Source: Oligoflexales bacterium (lineage in GTDB: Bacteria > Bdellovibrionota_B > Oligoflexia > Oligoflexales > JALZUQ01). Taken from it: a stretch of DNA of 36,160 nt. The notes beneath the pieces were generated by a model, which saw only the letters and a program-made list of their open reading frames with translations, was not told the origin of the DNA and searched no databases. Below, piece after piece: positions 25,466 through 32,517 of this stretch (positions within the stretch are counted from its first letter, which is position 1; the number at the start of each line of letters is the position of its first letter). The stretch covers positions 1 through 36,160 of the forward strand of contig JALZUO010000067.1 in assembly GCA_023301565.1 (NCBI GenBank), read 5' to 3'. A program made the translations under genes and the position numbers.

Positions 25466-26725
25466 ATGATTATCTTTTATCTTTTTGCTGTTTTTGGGTT
25501 TACCTATTGGGGTGGACGCTGTTTTATTTATGCTCGCCAGATTCGCTACTTGTCTGACCACGCTGTCAGTCAAGGTGTACCTAAGGCTGCTCCGAAGGTT
25601 TCTATATTGGTGCCGTTTTGCGACGAAGAAGGTTCGATAGTGAAAGCTGCAAAGAAGCTAGCGCTTTTGGAATACCCAAACCTTGAAATCTTATACCTAA
25701 ATGATCGCAGCACCGATGGCGGTGGAGAAGCGTTAGAAACCTATTTGGCTAGCAAATCAAAAAAACTTGAAACTAGCTACAAAGAACACTGCTTTCATAT
25801 CAAAGAGCTCCCCAACGGGTGGCTTGGTAAGCTGCATGCCATAGATTTTGGGCTGAAGCAGGCGCAGGGCAAGTGGGTTCTTTTGATGGACGCAGACGTG
25901 ATGCTTGAGCCGAGTGTGTTGCAAAAAGCTGTTGATCATTGTGAATCAGATAACTTAGATCATTTAGCGCTCATCGCAGAGTTCGGTAGCCCAGGCTTTT
26001 GGACGACTAGTTTGCAGGCTGCCTTCTTTTCTCTTGTACCGCTGGCATTCTTACCGGCCCAAGTTCGGTCACCTAAAAGTAACGTGTATGCAGGGGTAGG
26101 GGCTTTTCAGCTAATTAGGCGGAGCTTTTTGCAGAAAGTCGGTGGTATGAAGTGGCTTGCGCTCGAGGTTATTGACGATATAGGGCTCGGAAAGCTAGTA
26201 AAAGCCAACCACGGAAAAAGTGAGCTTATGAGTGGACGGGGTCTTGCCAAGCTTCACTGGTATGGAAGTATCCCTGAAATGATACGTGGAACAGAAAAAA
26301 ATCTGTTTGCTGCTATGCGCTATTCTTTGTGGAGAATGATCCTGCAGGTTACTTTTTCACTGGGGCTGGCATTTTATTTTGTGTGGTCTTTATATACTTG
26401 TCCGCCTAGCTTACTTGTTTTCGGGCTTGGTATGCTCTCTCTCTTATTCTTTTTTATTGGATTGCACCGTTATTATCGAGTTTGGAACTTCAACGCATTT
26501 CATGCGTTAACTATTTTCTTTATGGTGCCTATTTTGTTTTGGATGCTCGTTCGTAACTCTGTGCTTGCTTGGAGGAAAGGCGGGATTTCTTGGCGCGGCA
26601 CCTTTTATTCTATCGACACATTGATCGAAAACCAGAGGGTTTTTCTCGGAACAGACTTTGTTTTTGGTTACCCAAAGGCCGCGGTTACAGATAAAGAGTC
26701 ACCCGAGGTGCGGCCTTTGTCATGA
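25466..26725 (+). CDS. Membrane family 2 glycosyltransferase (HpnB-like)
   Basis: A 419-residue protein with an N-terminal membrane segment (1-18), a GT-A domain and two to three C-terminal membrane segments (~295-370). The nucleotide-sugar site shows SILVPFCDEEGSI, LNDRSTDGGGEA and the metal motif MDADVML (141-147); the acceptor side has VIDDIGLGKLVK. The C-terminal GGISWRGTFYSI resembles hopanoid- and carotenoid-associated GT2 enzymes. The glycosylated product is unknown. The downstream acyltransferase start overlaps its stop as ATGA, so the two are coupled and likely act on the same lipid-like substrate. Confidence 0.85.
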   Translation: MIIFYLFAVFGFTYWGGRCFIYARQIRYLSDHAVSQGVPKAAPKVSILVPFCDEEGSIVKAAKKLALLEYPNLEILYLNDRSTDGGGEALETYLASKSKKLETSYKEHCFHIKELPNGWLGKLHAIDFGLKQAQGKWVLLMDADVMLEPSVLQKAVDHCESDNLDHLALIAEFGSPGFWTTSLQAAFFSLVPLAFLPAQVRSPKSNVYAGVGAFQLIRRSFLQKVGGMKWLALEVIDDIGLGKLVKANHGKSELMSGRGLAKLHWYGSIPEMIRGTEKNLFAAMRYSLWRMILQVTFSLGLAFYFVWSLYTCPPSLLVFGLGMLSLLFFFIGLHRYYRVWNFNAFHALTIFFMVPILFWMLVRNSVLAWRKGGISWRGTFYSIDTLIENQRVFLGTDFVFGYPKAAVTDKESPEVRPLS

Positions 26726-27465
26726 AAAACATAGAGCTTAGCGGTCAAGAAAAAATATCTTTGCAACGCAAAGGGGCTTTGCTTAGTTGGACTGGGTCCT
26801 CAAACTACTACTACTTGATGGAAGAGCTGGATATCTCGCCTCTTTTAAAAAAGAGAAATAGTCTTGCAAATCAATCAGGTAGCTTCCAGGCAATCTTTAT
26901 TGGTCTTCTTGCAAACTGTGCGGCAAAGCATGATTTTTTTTATCACGCAGTTTTTGGCCAAAAGATATACCGTCGCCTGCACTTAGTCGTGTCGACCCTA
27001 GTTAGTTTTGACAAAGAAATAGCCGGCTCTATTAGGCTTCAAGATCCTCACCTTAAAAGCCTTGACGAGATTCGGGCTGAGTTGGCAGCAGGCAAGGCAA
27101 AGCTAAAAAAAGGAACCAATGTTCCTGGGTGGCTGAATCACGTGCCCATGCTTTTGCTCAGCGCTATGATGCGCCTGACGTTTTTTCTAATGTACAGTTT
27201 TAATTACTGGGCTGCATGGCTTCCTTTGGAGCGCGATGTGATCGGCGCGATGGTTGTCAGCAATGTTGGTGCGGCCGGATCGTCTTCGTGGATCGTGCCA
27301 CAGCAAAACCGCTACCATGCTCCGCCTTGCTCGATTGTCTACGGCAGGGCAGAGGGTAATAAGCTAAAGGTAACTTTTGGTTTTGATCACCGGATCGCAG
27401 ATGGCCGGCACAGTATGGAGTTCGTAGATGACGTGAAGCAGGCTCTTGCAAGCCTCACGTCCTAG
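26722..27465 (+). CDS. Acyltransferase of the 2-oxoacid dehydrogenase E2 / CAT fold, no lipoyl domain
   Basis: A 247-residue protein whose C-terminal half reads like an E2 catalytic domain: AMVVSNVGAAGSSSW (~176-190), then FGFDHRIADGRHSMEF with catalytic His223 and Asp227 of the DHRxxDG motif. Lipoyl and E1/E3-binding domains are missing. It carries a hydrophobic stretch (~142-168) and is too short for a normal E2, so it should transfer acyl groups from CoA to something other than lipoamide. Translation is coupled to the glycosyltransferase by ATGA. I infer acylation of a glycosylated lipid. Confidence 0.75.
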   Translation: MKNIELSGQEKISLQRKGALLSWTGSSNYYYLMEELDISPLLKKRNSLANQSGSFQAIFIGLLANCAAKHDFFYHAVFGQKIYRRLHLVVSTLVSFDKEIAGSIRLQDPHLKSLDEIRAELAAGKAKLKKGTNVPGWLNHVPMLLLSAMMRLTFFLMYSFNYWAAWLPLERDVIGAMVVSNVGAAGSSSWIVPQQNRYHAPPCSIVYGRAEGNKLKVTFGFDHRIADGRHSMEFVDDVKQALASLTS

Positions 27466-27474
27466 TTCTGCTTT

Positions 27475-28455
27475 CTAATTTAAAAACCCTTTGATTTTGC
27501 TAGTGACTTCGTCTGGTATTTCTTCGGCAAGAAAATGTGCATTGTTTTTGTAAATATGGATCCGCTGCGAAGGGATGCTAAATGATTTTCGCAAAATGGG
27601 AATTTGTTTTTTAGTTAGAATACTGTCTTTTCCTCCCCATAGCACCATTACATCGCCTGAAAACTGAGGCCACTTTTTTTGTTTGTTTTGAAGGTTTGAA
27701 AATAAATCTTTGTTTATACTGGTGAAGAAACTATAGAGTGCATGATTTGCGCCTTCACGCATGGGTTTTACATAACCGTAGCACTCGTCTTCTGTGAGTT
27801 TGTGGTCTCCTTTTAAACCTAAGTGCCCTAGGGTTGTTTTTATTATGGCTGCACTAGTGATCCTGGATTTATAGGCTTTCGTGATTTGCGAGACCATAAA
27901 CTTCCCACCGAGTTTAGGCTGGTTAAAGCCTTGGTCGTCGACAATTGTATTGAGTACTATAAGATTTTTGAGTCGAGAAGGTGCTGCTTCGAGCATTTCC
28001 CAGGCTACGAGGCCTCCCATATCATGAAAGAGCAAAGAAAAATTTGATATGCCGCGTGCCGAAACAAGCTGCAAAACACGCCGAGCTTGCTCGCGGTGGC
28101 TATATTTTTCGGCGTCCTCTTTTGGCTTTTCACTACTGCCATAACCTAAAAGGTCTACTGTGATTACGCGGTAATTTTTTTGTAGCTTCGGAATGAGCTT
28201 TCGGTACATCCACGACGAGGTGGGTACGCCGTGTATAAGCACCAGCGCGTGCCCTGTTCCGTGGTCGGTGAAAGCAATCTTTCCAGCGTCCGTTTGGAAG
28301 TGCTGCTGCTGTGCTCTGTGGTGTTTGTAGTCCTTCGGTGGGATGTAAGAGTTTGAAACTTCCGCTGCTACCTCAGGAGTACTCTTTTTGGACACGCAGC
28401 CCATGAAGCCAACAGAGAGAAGTAAAAAGTATAAAGAAATATGTGTTGAGTTCAA
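27475..28455 (-). CDS. Haloalkane dehalogenase/epoxide hydrolase-like lipoprotein
   Basis: A 326-residue alpha/beta hydrolase. I start at TTG 28455: AAGGGGA lies 6 bases upstream and a lipoprotein signal follows at once (ISLYFLLLSVGFMGC, Cys20). ATG 28497 has no comparable site. The oxyanion segment is LIHGVPTSSWMYRKL. The nucleophile is Asp145 in LLFHDMGGLVAW, as in haloalkane dehalogenases and epoxide hydrolases rather than serine esterases; the base is His307 (NNAHFLAEE) and the acid probably Asp277 (LWGGKDS). Met replaces the Trp after the nucleophile that stabilises halide in true dehalogenases, so dehalogenation is uncertain. Lipid anchoring is unusual for this family. Confidence 0.8.
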   Translation of the reverse strand: MNSTHISLYFLLLSVGFMGCVSKKSTPEVAAEVSNSYIPPKDYKHHRAQQQHFQTDAGKIAFTDHGTGHALVLIHGVPTSSWMYRKLIPKLQKNYRVITVDLLGYGSSEKPKEDAEKYSHREQARRVLQLVSARGISNFSLLFHDMGGLVAWEMLEAAPSRLKNLIVLNTIVDDQGFNQPKLGGKFMVSQITKAYKSRITSAAIIKTTLGHLGLKGDHKLTEDECYGYVKPMREGANHALYSFFTSINKDLFSNLQNKQKKWPQFSGDVMVLWGGKDSILTKKQIPILRKSFSIPSQRIHIYKNNAHFLAEEIPDEVTSKIKGFLN

Positions 28456-28697
28456 AGTTTCCCCTTTTTTTTGGTAGTTGTTCCTCAATCTTGTCATTTT
28501 AACCTATGCTCTACCCAAGTGATAGCTGGGCAACCTGGAGTCGTCAAAACCCCTGCACCACATGGTTTTGTGCGGTTAGTTGTCATGCAGCTCTTTCCTT
28601 ATGTATAGTTGTAATGATTTAAGCCCGGACGCCAGTCTTGGAGTGTTTTACTAAGGGACTCAAGTTTTCTGGGTTCGTCTCGGAAGGTTTTTTAGGT

Positions 28698-29150
28698 ATG
28701 AGTCGATTGGTGTTATGTATGGTTTTTGCAATATCTTGTAGTTTATTTGCACAAAAAAATGCTGGTTTCGTTGGTGGGAAGACCTTTGCTCAGGGTTATG
28801 ACCCTGTTAGCTATTTGCTTGAGAACAAGGCTCAAAAGGGCCAGGCTGATTTAGTGTACTCTTATAAAGATACCCGGTTCCACTTTGTTTCTAGAGCTAA
28901 TCTTGAGGCCTTCAAGACCAACCCTGAAAAGCATCTTCCTGCCTATAACGGTTGGTGTGCCTACGCCATGGCAAAAAAGGGGAAATTGGTTTCGGTGAAC
29001 CCAAAGAAATTTATAGTTGTAAATGGACGGGTGTTTTTATTTTACTCAAATATCTTTGCTCGCACTCTGGTACGATGGAAAAACGAAAAGTCGGAAAAAT
29101 CTTTGATCGAAGCAGGGGACCGTAACTGGTTAAAATATAGTGAGCTCTAG
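28698..29150 (+). CDS. Exported YHS-domain protein
   Basis: A 150-residue protein starting at ATG 28698 with a signal peptide (LVLCMVFAISCSLFAQ). The YHS signature follows: FAQGYDPVSYLLE, VYSYKDTRFHFVSRANLEAF, NPEKHLPAYNGWCAYAMAKKGK, VNPKKFIVVNGRVFLFY. YHS domains are small folds linked to metal binding; the function here is unknown. GGAAGG lies ~10 bases upstream. Its stop overlaps the start of the cysteine dioxygenase by 11 bp, so it is the first gene of that operon and may support the iron enzyme; that link is inference. Confidence 0.8.
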   Translation: MSRLVLCMVFAISCSLFAQKNAGFVGGKTFAQGYDPVSYLLENKAQKGQADLVYSYKDTRFHFVSRANLEAFKTNPEKHLPAYNGWCAYAMAKKGKLVSVNPKKFIVVNGRVFLFYSNIFARTLVRWKNEKSEKSLIEAGDRNWLKYSEL

Positions 29151-29577
29151 TCAACTAAATTCAATATTAGAAAACATCGGTGGCGATGCTTCTCAGTCGA
29201 TCGATCAAATCGGTCCACATTTGGGAAATGTCGATCTCTGGCAAGACAGTACTTATAACCGAGTAACTCTTTTAAAGAATCAAGACATAGAGATTGTGGC
29301 GATATATTGGAAAAAAGGTCAAGCCACCCCTTTGCATGGTCACGGACAGAGCAAATGCTTTTTTACAGTTTTTCAAGGCGAGATCGAAGACTCTAGGTTC
29401 TCCTCTCGAGGAGACTTTCCGGATCTAAAGCTAAAGCTAACGCCAAAAGATGGCATGCAAAATGAGGATTGTTTTCACACTTTAAGTTGTGTGAGTGAGA
29501 AAGCTATCAGTCTACATATTTACACTCCTCCTATCTGTACAGAAACCAACTCGACACAATCTAAAAATCAGAAGTAG
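29140..29577 (+). CDS. Cysteine dioxygenase
   Basis: A 145-residue cupin that oxidises cysteine to cysteine sulfinate with non-heme iron. Iron ligands are His66 and His68 (PLHGHGQSKCF) and His113 (CFHTLSC). Arg41 (YNRVTL) matches the substrate-carboxylate arginine. Cys73, seven residues after His66, and Tyr128 (HIYTPP) sit where animal enzymes form their Cys-Tyr cross-link; most bacterial homologues have Gly at the Cys position. GTG 29140 lies inside the end of the YHS gene, which implies coupling, with no separate ribosome-binding site. The decarboxylase gene begins 7 bp downstream. Confidence 0.88.
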   Translation: MSSSQLNSILENIGGDASQSIDQIGPHLGNVDLWQDSTYNRVTLLKNQDIEIVAIYWKKGQATPLHGHGQSKCFFTVFQGEIEDSRFSSRGDFPDLKLKLTPKDGMQNEDCFHTLSCVSEKAISLHIYTPPICTETNSTQSKNQK

Positions 29578-29584
29578 AGCTACA

Positions 29585-31045
29585 ATGCTAAATTCTTTAG
29601 ATATAAAAAAGACCTTGGACATCATTGAAAGCACGCTGATTTCAGTTCGTGAAAGGCAGCTGCAAGAGGAGCTTTCCGACAAGAAGCTTTCTTTTGAAGA
29701 GCTTGAAAAGATTTTTGATACAAACCTTGAAGGGACCCAGTCTCTTGACGCGGTGAAAAGTTTTTTTTCTGATTACTTGCAGTATAGTGTCAACACAGCT
29801 CACCCATATTTTAATAACCAGCTTTTTTCTGGCGTAGAATGGTCTGCTGTACTCGGCGATTTTCTGACATCCATTACCAATACAACTATGGCGACCTTTG
29901 AGTCTAGCCCTGTTGGCACGGTCCTAGAGTCAAAACTTATAGAGAAGCTACTAGCTAAAATAGGTTATGACGGCGGAGAAGGAATTATGGTGGGCGGCGG
30001 CAGCCAGGCCAACATGCAGGCAATGGTTTGTGCTCGCCAGCATATGTTTCCTGATTTTAATGCTGACCCAGCAGCTTGCAAACCATTGACGATGTTTGTT
30101 TCTGAGCATGCGCACTACTCATTTAAAAAAGCAGCAATGGTGATGGGGCTCGGTAAAGCCGGCGTAGTTAAAGTTCCGGTGAATGCCAAAAACCAAATGG
30201 ACCCCAAAGAGCTGGATAGACTCATTCAAAAAACCATCGATGATAACCGGCAGCCGTTTTTGGTCGCTGCCACGGCAGGAACAACGGTCTACGGAGCCTT
30301 TGACTCGGTCCCTGGTTTGGCAAAAGTCTGCAAGAGCCGCAACCTGTGGCTACATGTCGACGGGGCATGGGGAGCGCCAGCTTTTTTCTCTGATAGATAT
30401 AAAGACCTACTTGCTGGCTCTGCCTTGGCAGACTCCTGGACCTGGGATGCGCACAAGCTGATGGGTGCGAGTTTGACAAGCAGTTTTTTTCTAAGCAAGC
30501 ATAAAGGCACACTGTTCAATGCCAATAACATTGACGAGGGCAAGTATATCTTTCATGAAGATGCAGCTGTAAGTTGTGATTTTGGACCAATGTCGCTGCA
30601 GTGTGGCCGTAGGGTTACATCTGCAAGTCTTTGGACTCAGTGGCTAAAAGAAGGCGATGAAGGCTTTAAAAAGAAGGTCGAGAGTTTAGACGACCTAAAA
30701 CTGTATATAGTCGGTCAAATAAAAAAGAACCCTCGCCTAGAGCTGATCACAGAAGCTCCGTTTTTAAACGTGTGCTTCCGGGTTCGCTCAGACAAGGCTT
30801 CTTGCGAAAACCATTTTAATCGCCAGATTCGTGAGACATTAAAAAACCGTGGCCAGTTTTTGGTGAATTTCTACGAGGACACAAACGGTCTTTTGTTCTT
30901 CCGCTTTATCTTGGCCAACTCTTTGTTTGAGCAAAAGCACGTAGACGCGTTTTTAAACTACCTTTTGACTGTCGCAGATGAGCTTGAAGCAGGCGTGCAA
31001 GACGGCGCACACGCCAAAGGTTCTTTGTTGAATTCAGTTGTATAA
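29585..31045 (+). CDS. Group II PLP decarboxylase, probable cysteine sulfinate decarboxylase
   Basis: A 486-residue PLP enzyme of the glutamate/cysteine-sulfinate decarboxylase group. ATG 29585 is chosen because the longer frame overlaps the dioxygenase gene and AGTAGAG lies upstream. Seen: HPYFNNQLFSGVEW near the N-terminus, FVSEHAHYSFKKAAMVMGLG with His177 stacking on PLP, HVDGAWGAPAFF with Asp259, and SWTWDAHKLMGA with the Schiff-base Lys291. LQCGRRVTSASLW also matches animal CSAD/GAD. Substrate is inferred from the preceding cysteine dioxygenase: cysteine sulfinate to hypotaurine. Glutamate or aspartate decarboxylation cannot be excluded from sequence. Confidence 0.88.
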   Translation: MLNSLDIKKTLDIIESTLISVRERQLQEELSDKKLSFEELEKIFDTNLEGTQSLDAVKSFFSDYLQYSVNTAHPYFNNQLFSGVEWSAVLGDFLTSITNTTMATFESSPVGTVLESKLIEKLLAKIGYDGGEGIMVGGGSQANMQAMVCARQHMFPDFNADPAACKPLTMFVSEHAHYSFKKAAMVMGLGKAGVVKVPVNAKNQMDPKELDRLIQKTIDDNRQPFLVAATAGTTVYGAFDSVPGLAKVCKSRNLWLHVDGAWGAPAFFSDRYKDLLAGSALADSWTWDAHKLMGASLTSSFFLSKHKGTLFNANNIDEGKYIFHEDAAVSCDFGPMSLQCGRRVTSASLWTQWLKEGDEGFKKKVESLDDLKLYIVGQIKKNPRLELITEAPFLNVCFRVRSDKASCENHFNRQIRETLKNRGQFLVNFYEDTNGLLFFRFILANSLFEQKHVDAFLNYLLTVADELEAGVQDGAHAKGSLLNSVV

Positions 31046-31080: not shown

Positions 31081-32517
31081 TTATGTAGAGCTGAGGCTTA
31101 GGCTAAGTGCAGCTTGGTATCCTTTTTCGAAAATAGCCATCTTCTTTAGTTGAGTTATAGTAGCGCCGGATGTAAAAACATCATCTACAAAAATTATAAC
31201 CTTTTTATTCTTACCCTTTTTAAACCTATACTTGGTAGCAACTGCGTTTCCAAGCCTCTGCCAAAGATGTTTTTGAAATTGTTGTTTTTCACCTTTTGAC
31301 CTACTGACAAGCTCCATGTAGTCGACTTCAAGCTGCTGGCTTAGGTGCTGGGCAAAGACCTTGTTGATAGGCTTAGAAGACGGTACTGGAACCAGCGCCA
31401 CCTCCTCTGAGGTGAATTTGTTTTTTTCTAAAAAAAGTTGAAGTTTTTTTCTGTATCCATCTATCGATGGGTTTAGTTCGTTGAGTGTTTTTTGCTGAAC
31501 CGATGGGTCTGGAGCTTCGTCTAAAATAAGTTTTGATATTTTGTTTGCGCCTTCTTTGCTTTCGTCTGTTTTGAATTTTGCGAAAGCTTTATGGCGAACC
31601 ACCTCAGGTATTTCCTGGTCCATGCCGAGACGGGTTGCTGTCGCAAAGATGCCGTCGTTCCACAAGCTGTAGCGCACGAGTAAGTTGAGATCGTGAGGTA
31701 CGCTGTGGACTTTTCCGCCTACAACTGAAGATGTTGAAAATGTCTGTGTGTGGGCCATTCCAGGGCCACTTCTTACCCCAGGTATCCATGTTTCATTTAT
31801 ATCTTCAGGGTATTTTCTTTTGTAAGCTATTCTAAACAGGTTAAGTGCAGCGGCCCTCATTGGGTCAAGTCCTGTGCTTATATAAAAATCGACTAATAGC
31901 TGAGAGGCAATTGGTAGATGGTCAGTTGAAGGTTGTTCAAACTTTCTTTCACCAGGGTCCTTGCTACGCAGCTTCGGTAAGGTTGACATAAAAAAATCAT
32001 AAAAATTTTGATCCGGATAACGCACAGAAAAGACTCTCTGCATAATGTGGAATTGGTTCTTCTTTTCCAATACATCTGTTTTCCCGGTGTTTCTCGACAA
32101 GCTAGGGTAGTCTGTATCCATGAGATGCATCCAGCCTAGGTAAAACGGGATGTTCCCAGGTCGGCTAAATCGATTTTCGAGTCTTTTGGTTATTACTTCG
32201 TGCATAAGCTGACTGCCTAGTGCAACCCATCTTTGTTCGGGGGGGGCTTCTATGGTTCGGCGGGCAGGAGAACCAGCTGGATAGAAGGTTATTTTTCTTG
32301 ACTCTTTATCGTAGGAAACAACGCGCACCACTCCAAACTCAGAGTCAATATAGTATTTGTTCGCGCGCAGCTTTTCTGCAGCTAGCCATTCACCCTTATT
32401 TTTATATTGCCAATTTTGGCTTAAGATCCAGCTAGCTCTCACGCACTCTGTTTTTTGCCGGTTTGGGGCAAAAAGAGTAGTAGTAATAAGTAAACCGAAT
32501 ATCAACAATCTCATCAT
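31081..32517 (-). CDS. Exported protein with C-terminal ComF-like phosphoribosyltransferase domain
   Basis: A 478-residue protein. Residues 1-17 (MMRLLIFGLLITTTLFA) look like a signal peptide. The N-terminal ~360 residues match nothing I recognise. From ~375 it reads like ComF: ALVPVPSSKPINKVFAQHL, then KQQFQKHLWQRLGNAVATKY, then the PRPP loop IIFVDDVFTSGATITQL (443-457). ComF-type domains normally work in the cytosol, so an exported copy is odd; the hydrophobic start could instead be a membrane anchor with the domain inside. AGAGG precedes ATG 32517. Convergent with the decarboxylase gene (35-bp gap). Confidence 0.7.
   Translation of the reverse strand: MMRLLIFGLLITTTLFAPNRQKTECVRASWILSQNWQYKNKGEWLAAEKLRANKYYIDSEFGVVRVVSYDKESRKITFYPAGSPARRTIEAPPEQRWVALGSQLMHEVITKRLENRFSRPGNIPFYLGWMHLMDTDYPSLSRNTGKTDVLEKKNQFHIMQRVFSVRYPDQNFYDFFMSTLPKLRSKDPGERKFEQPSTDHLPIASQLLVDFYISTGLDPMRAAALNLFRIAYKRKYPEDINETWIPGVRSGPGMAHTQTFSTSSVVGGKVHSVPHDLNLLVRYSLWNDGIFATATRLGMDQEIPEVVRHKAFAKFKTDESKEGANKISKLILDEAPDPSVQQKTLNELNPSIDGYRKKLQLFLEKNKFTSEEVALVPVPSSKPINKVFAQHLSQQLEVDYMELVSRSKGEKQQFQKHLWQRLGNAVATKYRFKKGKNKKVIIFVDDVFTSGATITQLKKMAIFEKGYQAALSLSLSST

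Follow-up and report, generated by a model that had tools for sequence, protein, structure and literature searches.

The locus raised the question of whether three adjoining genes of an Oligoflexales bacterium would convert cysteine into hypotaurine and whether, as a preliminary description of the same DNA had proposed, they would do so with animal-like enzymes. The window is the whole stretch of DNA that was analysed (36,160 nucleotides; contig JALZUO010000067.1 of assembly GCA_023301565.1, positions 1 to 36,160 of the forward strand). The features required for the argument are as follows:

27475-28497, minus strand: alpha/beta hydrolase gene (PF00561, 94 bits), the divergent left-hand boundary of the operon
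28580-28609, plus strand: candidate sigma-70-type promoter upstream of the operon, TTGTCA-18-TATAGT (10/12 consensus matches)
28698-29150, plus strand: YHS (seleno)domain protein, predicted to be exported (150 aa; NF041384)
29140-29577, plus strand: cysteine dioxygenase-type cupin (CDO; 145 aa; PF05995)
29585-31045, plus strand: PLP-dependent decarboxylase of the CSAD/GAD clade (486 aa; PF00282)
31081-32517, minus strand: convergent right-hand boundary gene, with a weak ComF/phosphoribosyltransferase-like C-terminus (TIGR00201, 31.7 bits, below the cut-off)

The operon consists of the three plus-strand genes (YHS, CDO and PLP decarboxylase) and has a minus-strand gene on either side. The close packing described earlier was borne out: the CDO gene starts with a GTG at 29140, so that its first 11 nt lie within the end of the YHS gene, and the decarboxylase gene starts with an ATG at 29585, 7 nt past the CDO stop. 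The G+C content of the three genes is similar to that of the rest of the window. The site at 28580-28609 is the best promoter-like site of the region and is a weak candidate, because promoter-like sites are in excess there (9 in total, 4.4 expected).

The best reading of the operon, to which we attach a moderate probability, is the conversion of cysteine via cysteine sulfinate to hypotaurine, because of the operon linkage and the co-occurrence of CDO and CSAD-type genes in Planctomycetota. We infer both substrates and the direction of the pathway as follows: the Fe(II) cupin would convert L-cysteine into cysteine sulfinate by adding O2, with Tyr39 and Arg41 gripping the substrate carboxylate and a Cys73-Tyr128 thioether possibly raising CDO activity; the PLP decarboxylase, encoded next to the CDO, would remove CO2 from cysteine sulfinate to give hypotaurine, which could go on to taurine. 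Hypotaurine synthesis, the function proposed at the outset, is still the likeliest one predicted; the animal-like character given to the pathway is not supported. The reading is favoured by the tight coupling of the genes, the presence of all active-site residues of an Arg-type CDO, the placement of the decarboxylase in the CSAD/GAD clade (support 100/99) and the Phe at its selectivity position X1. Against it stand a selectivity motif of F-T-A, not F-S-Y, the genomic context of the nearest decarboxylase relative (locus L044), the short, divergent CDO with its HGH motif, and the lack of adjacency elsewhere in the sample. A TauD-family match was found in the bacterium's own genome, in a family too broad to show taurine use.

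Operons of the CDO-CSAD kind were reportedly described for other bacteria by Agnello et al. in 2013 (ACS Chem Biol). For Synechococcus PCC 7335, a bacterial route to taurine that includes a purified CSAD has been reported (PMC8153620, which cites Agnello et al. for the original work). Both Synechococcus sp. PCC 7335 and the present bacterium carry a CDO-family and a CSAD-clade gene; here the two lie in one operon, F-T-A replaces F-S-Y, the CDO is short and divergent, and a gene for a predicted exported YHS protein stands in front. Bacterial CDO-CSAD pathways are already known, and this operon most likely belongs with them, its CDO being divergent and its decarboxylase pocket departing from the canonical one.

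For the survey of co-occurrence, 392 Planctomycetota genomes were used and decarboxylase matches at 1e-50 or better were counted. CSAD-type matches were present in 43 of the 392 genomes and CDO_I in 142 of the same set. CDO_I was found in 27/43 genomes with a CSAD-type match versus 115/349 without one (odds ratio 3.4; Fisher p 1.9e-4, a value that is only a guide because the genomes are related). Where the two genes share a contig in Planctomycetota, all pairs are more than 100 kb apart, and a CDO or YHS gene was absent within about 6 kb at most of 21 planctomycetal CSAD-type loci (a few of them shortened by contig or region ends). No second copy of the operon was found in genomes of the bacterium's own phylum. 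The two genes were nowhere adjacent in the genomes checked, which leaves the window operon as the sole adjacent pair in the sample.

The decarboxylase matches Pyridoxal_deC (PF00282) with 242 bits (cut-off 27), and its PLP lysine (K291), PLP-stacking His (H177), D259, catalytic-loop Tyr (Y321) and carboxylate Arg (R440) all fall in invariant columns. Its structure model (pLDDT 90, pTM 0.90) matched GAD67, CSAD and GADL1 at TM 0.85-0.90 in Foldseek. The enzyme had been said to resemble animal CSAD, and this stands in so far as the phrases HPYFNNQLFSG, SEHAHYS and QCGRRV are all present and the best PDB match is mouse CSAD (276 bits), ahead of GAD65 (253 bits) and of bacterial diaminobutyrate-type and other decarboxylases (at most 186 bits). 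The closest relatives, however, are bacterial: the best planctomycetal match reaches 418 bits with 46% identity, above any animal enzyme. The contig scan of genomes returned only three decarboxylase relatives, and plasmid matches had about 27-35% identity.

Phylogeny, which had been suggested as a check, gave a divided answer for the decarboxylase: it groups in the same clade as the animal enzymes, but its sister is planctomycetal. Two of its three selectivity positions are unlike those of CSAD. In the tree, the query and L044 are sisters (support 100/99; identity 44-46%) inside a 36-row CSAD/GAD clade of planctomycetal enzymes (100/99), and animal CSAD, GADL1 and GAD branch from within the planctomycetal CSAD-type enzymes, most of which have F-S-Y (support 94/87). 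An animal origin of the decarboxylase was rejected by this tree, with L044 as sister and the animal enzymes in another subclade. The nesting suggests, as far as this narrow sampling goes, that within the GAD/CSAD family the cysteine sulfinate type may have come first. The window enzyme has the clade, the fold and the PLP and catalytic-loop residues in common with animal CSAD (6zek, 2jis), GADL1 (6enz) and GAD65/67, at 29-32% identity; unlike them, it has Thr/Ala at X2/X3 (theirs are Ser/Tyr or Asn/Phe), and it is not their sister.

The motif X1-X2-X3 is reported to be F-S-Y in CSAD and S-N-F in GAD (Agnello et al., 2013), and these residues agree with the CSAD and GAD sequences used in this analysis. 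The three positions set CSAD versus GAD selectivity (PMC8153620), and the pocket is shaped by X1, which is occupied by Ser in GAD, by Tyr in GADL1 and by Phe in CSAD (PMC7367687). In the query the motif is F-T101-A103, the F being that of QLFSG: relative to CSAD, Phe at X1 is the same, Thr replaces Ser conservatively at X2 and Ala replaces Tyr at X3, and the motif also differs from that of GAD. Among the tabulated planctomycetal clade members, most have F-S-Y, some Y-S-Y and one W-S-Y, and L044 has F-S-A.

Within the planctomycetal CSAD-type family, L044 is the nearest to the query (44-46% identity) and has in common with it Ala at X3 and five further residues (S296, G319, I322, S346 and Q204) that set the two against the rest; some of these adjoin the PLP lysine or sit in the catalytic loop. 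Thus the pocket of the query and L044 differs from that of proven CSADs. L044 differs from the query in context: an NRPS gene starts about 100 bp downstream, neither a CDO nor a YHS gene lies near it and its genome (G131) has no CDO_I match, whereas the query belongs to a CDO operon. Because the F-S-A relative is found upstream of an NRPS gene in a genome without detectable CDO, the substrate of the query is uncertain. These observations, together with the replacement by Ala103 of a Tyr or Phe conserved in all 22 bacterial clade enzymes compared and in animal CSAD/GAD, speak for an alternative in which the substrate would be aspartate (giving beta-alanine), cysteate (giving taurine) or, given the pocket that Ala103 opens, a larger amino acid, and the CDO would merely dispose of cysteine. 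We consider this alternative fairly unlikely: at the main selectivity position, X1, the query has the Phe of CSAD, and the close linkage to the CDO gene would otherwise be hard to explain. Phe at X1 and the operon linkage favour cysteine sulfinate, and with Ala at X3 a different substrate could still fit.

A speculative extension, which we hold to be rather doubtful, gives the Ala103 decarboxylase and its sister from Planctomycetota a specificity class of their own; a cross-link-capable CDO would then be coupled to the decarboxylation of a sulfinate or an acidic amino acid, the end product would not be hypotaurine, and the predicted exported GxC YHS protein would serve as redox or metal partner. 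The F-T-A pocket is in any case a natural variant with which the published selectivity rule of the acidic amino acid decarboxylases could be tested. Separately, it was observed in region L089:6247-14000 of genome G131 that the gene immediately downstream of L044 encodes a large NRPS with several modules; its first two adenylation domains have codes that look, by eye, like those for aspartate and valine, respectively.

The first enzyme of the preferred cysteine-to-hypotaurine reading, the CDO, matches CDO_I (PF05995) with 41.5 bits (cut-off 23) over model positions 59-163 of 170, and gave no match to NCBIfam models. In the phmmer and 64-sequence alignments, His66, His68 and His113 fall on the iron ligands; all three stand in invariant columns. 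The substrate-carboxylate residues are found in Y39-N-R41, in which Arg41 corresponds to rat Arg60 (invariant) and Tyr39 to rat Tyr58, and Ser124-His126-Tyr128 corresponds to the Ser-His-Tyr network of Arg-type CDO. The near-invariant HDH is replaced by HGH (Asp to Gly67). Every residue tested puts the window CDO among the Arg-type, cysteine-oxidising enzymes, and it is predicted to oxidise cysteine. A Gln-type 3-mercaptopropionate dioxygenase was considered and rejected because Arg41 is present. The HGH motif was also seen in a planctomycetal CDO (L147, genome G267), together with Cys93 and Tyr157.

In Foldseek, the AlphaFold2 model of the CDO (pLDDT 82, pTM 0.76) was matched first by B. subtilis CDO with cysteine bound, and lower down by mammalian CDO, 3-mercaptopropionate dioxygenase and ergothioneine dioxygenase (of similar length). 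The sequence scores followed the same order (B. subtilis CDO 39.5 bits, rat CDO about 29 bits). In the CDO tree the query was placed nowhere firmly, on an extremely divergent end branch of 4.25, and its position relative to rat CDO did not resolve; no close CDO was found in the plasmid and viral collections. The three His, the Tyr/Arg carboxylate clamp, the Ser-His-Tyr network and the cupin fold are common to the window CDO, B. subtilis YubC (3eqe, 4qm9) and rat/human CDO1; the window protein differs in its identity of 27% or less, its length of 145 aa and its HGH motif. Such a short and very divergent cupin, with the ergothioneine and 3-mercaptopropionate dioxygenases among its structure matches, could instead oxidise another thiol (3-mercaptopropionate, a thiol of the ergothioneine type or one in a peptide), in which case the operon would make a different sulfinate; with Tyr39-x-Arg41 and the Ser-His-Tyr network being those of Arg-type CDO, and a cysteine-bound CDO as the top structure match, we regard this as improbable.

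The preliminary description had also noted the three iron histidines and had placed Cys73 and Tyr128 at the positions of the animal cross-link, and the alignment agrees: with no gaps between them, Cys73 falls on rat Cys93 and Tyr128 on rat Tyr157, Cys73 lies five residues past His68 just as rat Cys93 lies five past His88, and both residues are within confidently predicted strands of the AlphaFold2 model. The accompanying statement that bacterial homologues usually have Gly at this site was found to depend on the phylum. CDO_I homologues of the bacterium's own phylum have Gly in 15/15 cases, but the CDOs of Planctomycetota and close relatives (loci L106-L150) have Cys in 41/46, Gly in 4/46 and Val in 1/46. 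The 46 were the best-scoring loci and loci from genomes with a CSAD-type gene, and the proportion of Cys may be biased by that choice. Since Cys is the usual state in Planctomycetota, the window CDO stands out within its own phylum but not among bacteria at large. According to one review, the Cys-Tyr cofactor is eukaryotic and the bacterial forms of CDO use an unmodified Tyr (PMC8050391); according to another, the Cys is missing from many bacterial CDOs (PMC4019311). On the sequences compared here, Planctomycetota contradict the claim that the Cys is absent from bacteria, and the reviews state the opposite or a weaker version.

Both Cys and Tyr of the pair are present in 40/46 planctomycetal CDOs, and the pair is therefore not specific to animal CDO. 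The label of an animal-like dioxygenase could not be upheld: Cys73 is common in Planctomycetota, B. subtilis CDO outranks rat CDO in both bits and Foldseek, and the tree gives no firm placement and hence no support for an animal origin of the CDO. At the Cys73 site, the window CDO, rat and Planctomycetota have Cys, whereas B. subtilis has Gly. The idea of a taurine pathway of animal type, either taken over from animals or closely akin to theirs, is suggested by the Cys73/Tyr128 pair and by mouse CSAD as top PDB match, and is highly improbable given that the decarboxylase tree contradicts it (planctomycetal sister L044 at 100/99, animals in another subclade), Cys is ordinary at this site in Planctomycetota, the CDO is not near rat CDO and the operon has the G+C content of the rest of the window. 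Because the pair occurs in most of the planctomycetal CDOs and in this operon, the evolution of the cross-link, how and why, could be tested in a bacterial protein.

The YHS protein passes NF041384 (104.3 bits, cut-off 70). Its N terminus is hydrophobic and signal-peptide-like when read by eye, which is consistent with the export claimed for it. Its site is G85-W-C87, with Cys where selenoprotein members carry Sec; the selenoprotein members of the NF041384 type have a GxU motif (PMC13188914). Cys87 is invariant across two intact-frame homologues from the bacterium's own phylum (L152 and L153), near which no CDO or CSAD gene was found within flanks of about 1.5 kb. No solved structure was similar by sequence. 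The protein resembles the NF041384 family in scoring above the cut-off, in its predicted export and in the conserved G-x-C at the G-x-U site, and differs in having Cys, not Sec, and in being tied to thiol-oxidising genes. It would probably act in the periplasm or at the membrane and be expressed alongside the thiol-oxidising enzymes; a role in thiol redox chemistry or with a metal is a reasonable guess, and gene order suggests its link to the cysteine pathway.

Two further observations were made on neighbouring genes. The product of the right-hand boundary gene (31081-32517, minus strand) combines a signal-peptide-like N terminus with a C-terminal ComF-like phosphoribosyltransferase motif (VIIFVDDVFTSGAT), which is odd for an exported protein. 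The plus-strand gene at 26722-27465 encodes a free-standing catalytic domain resembling 2-oxoacid dehydrogenase acyltransferases (DHRIADG) and overlaps an HpnB-like glycosyltransferase gene (25466-26725).
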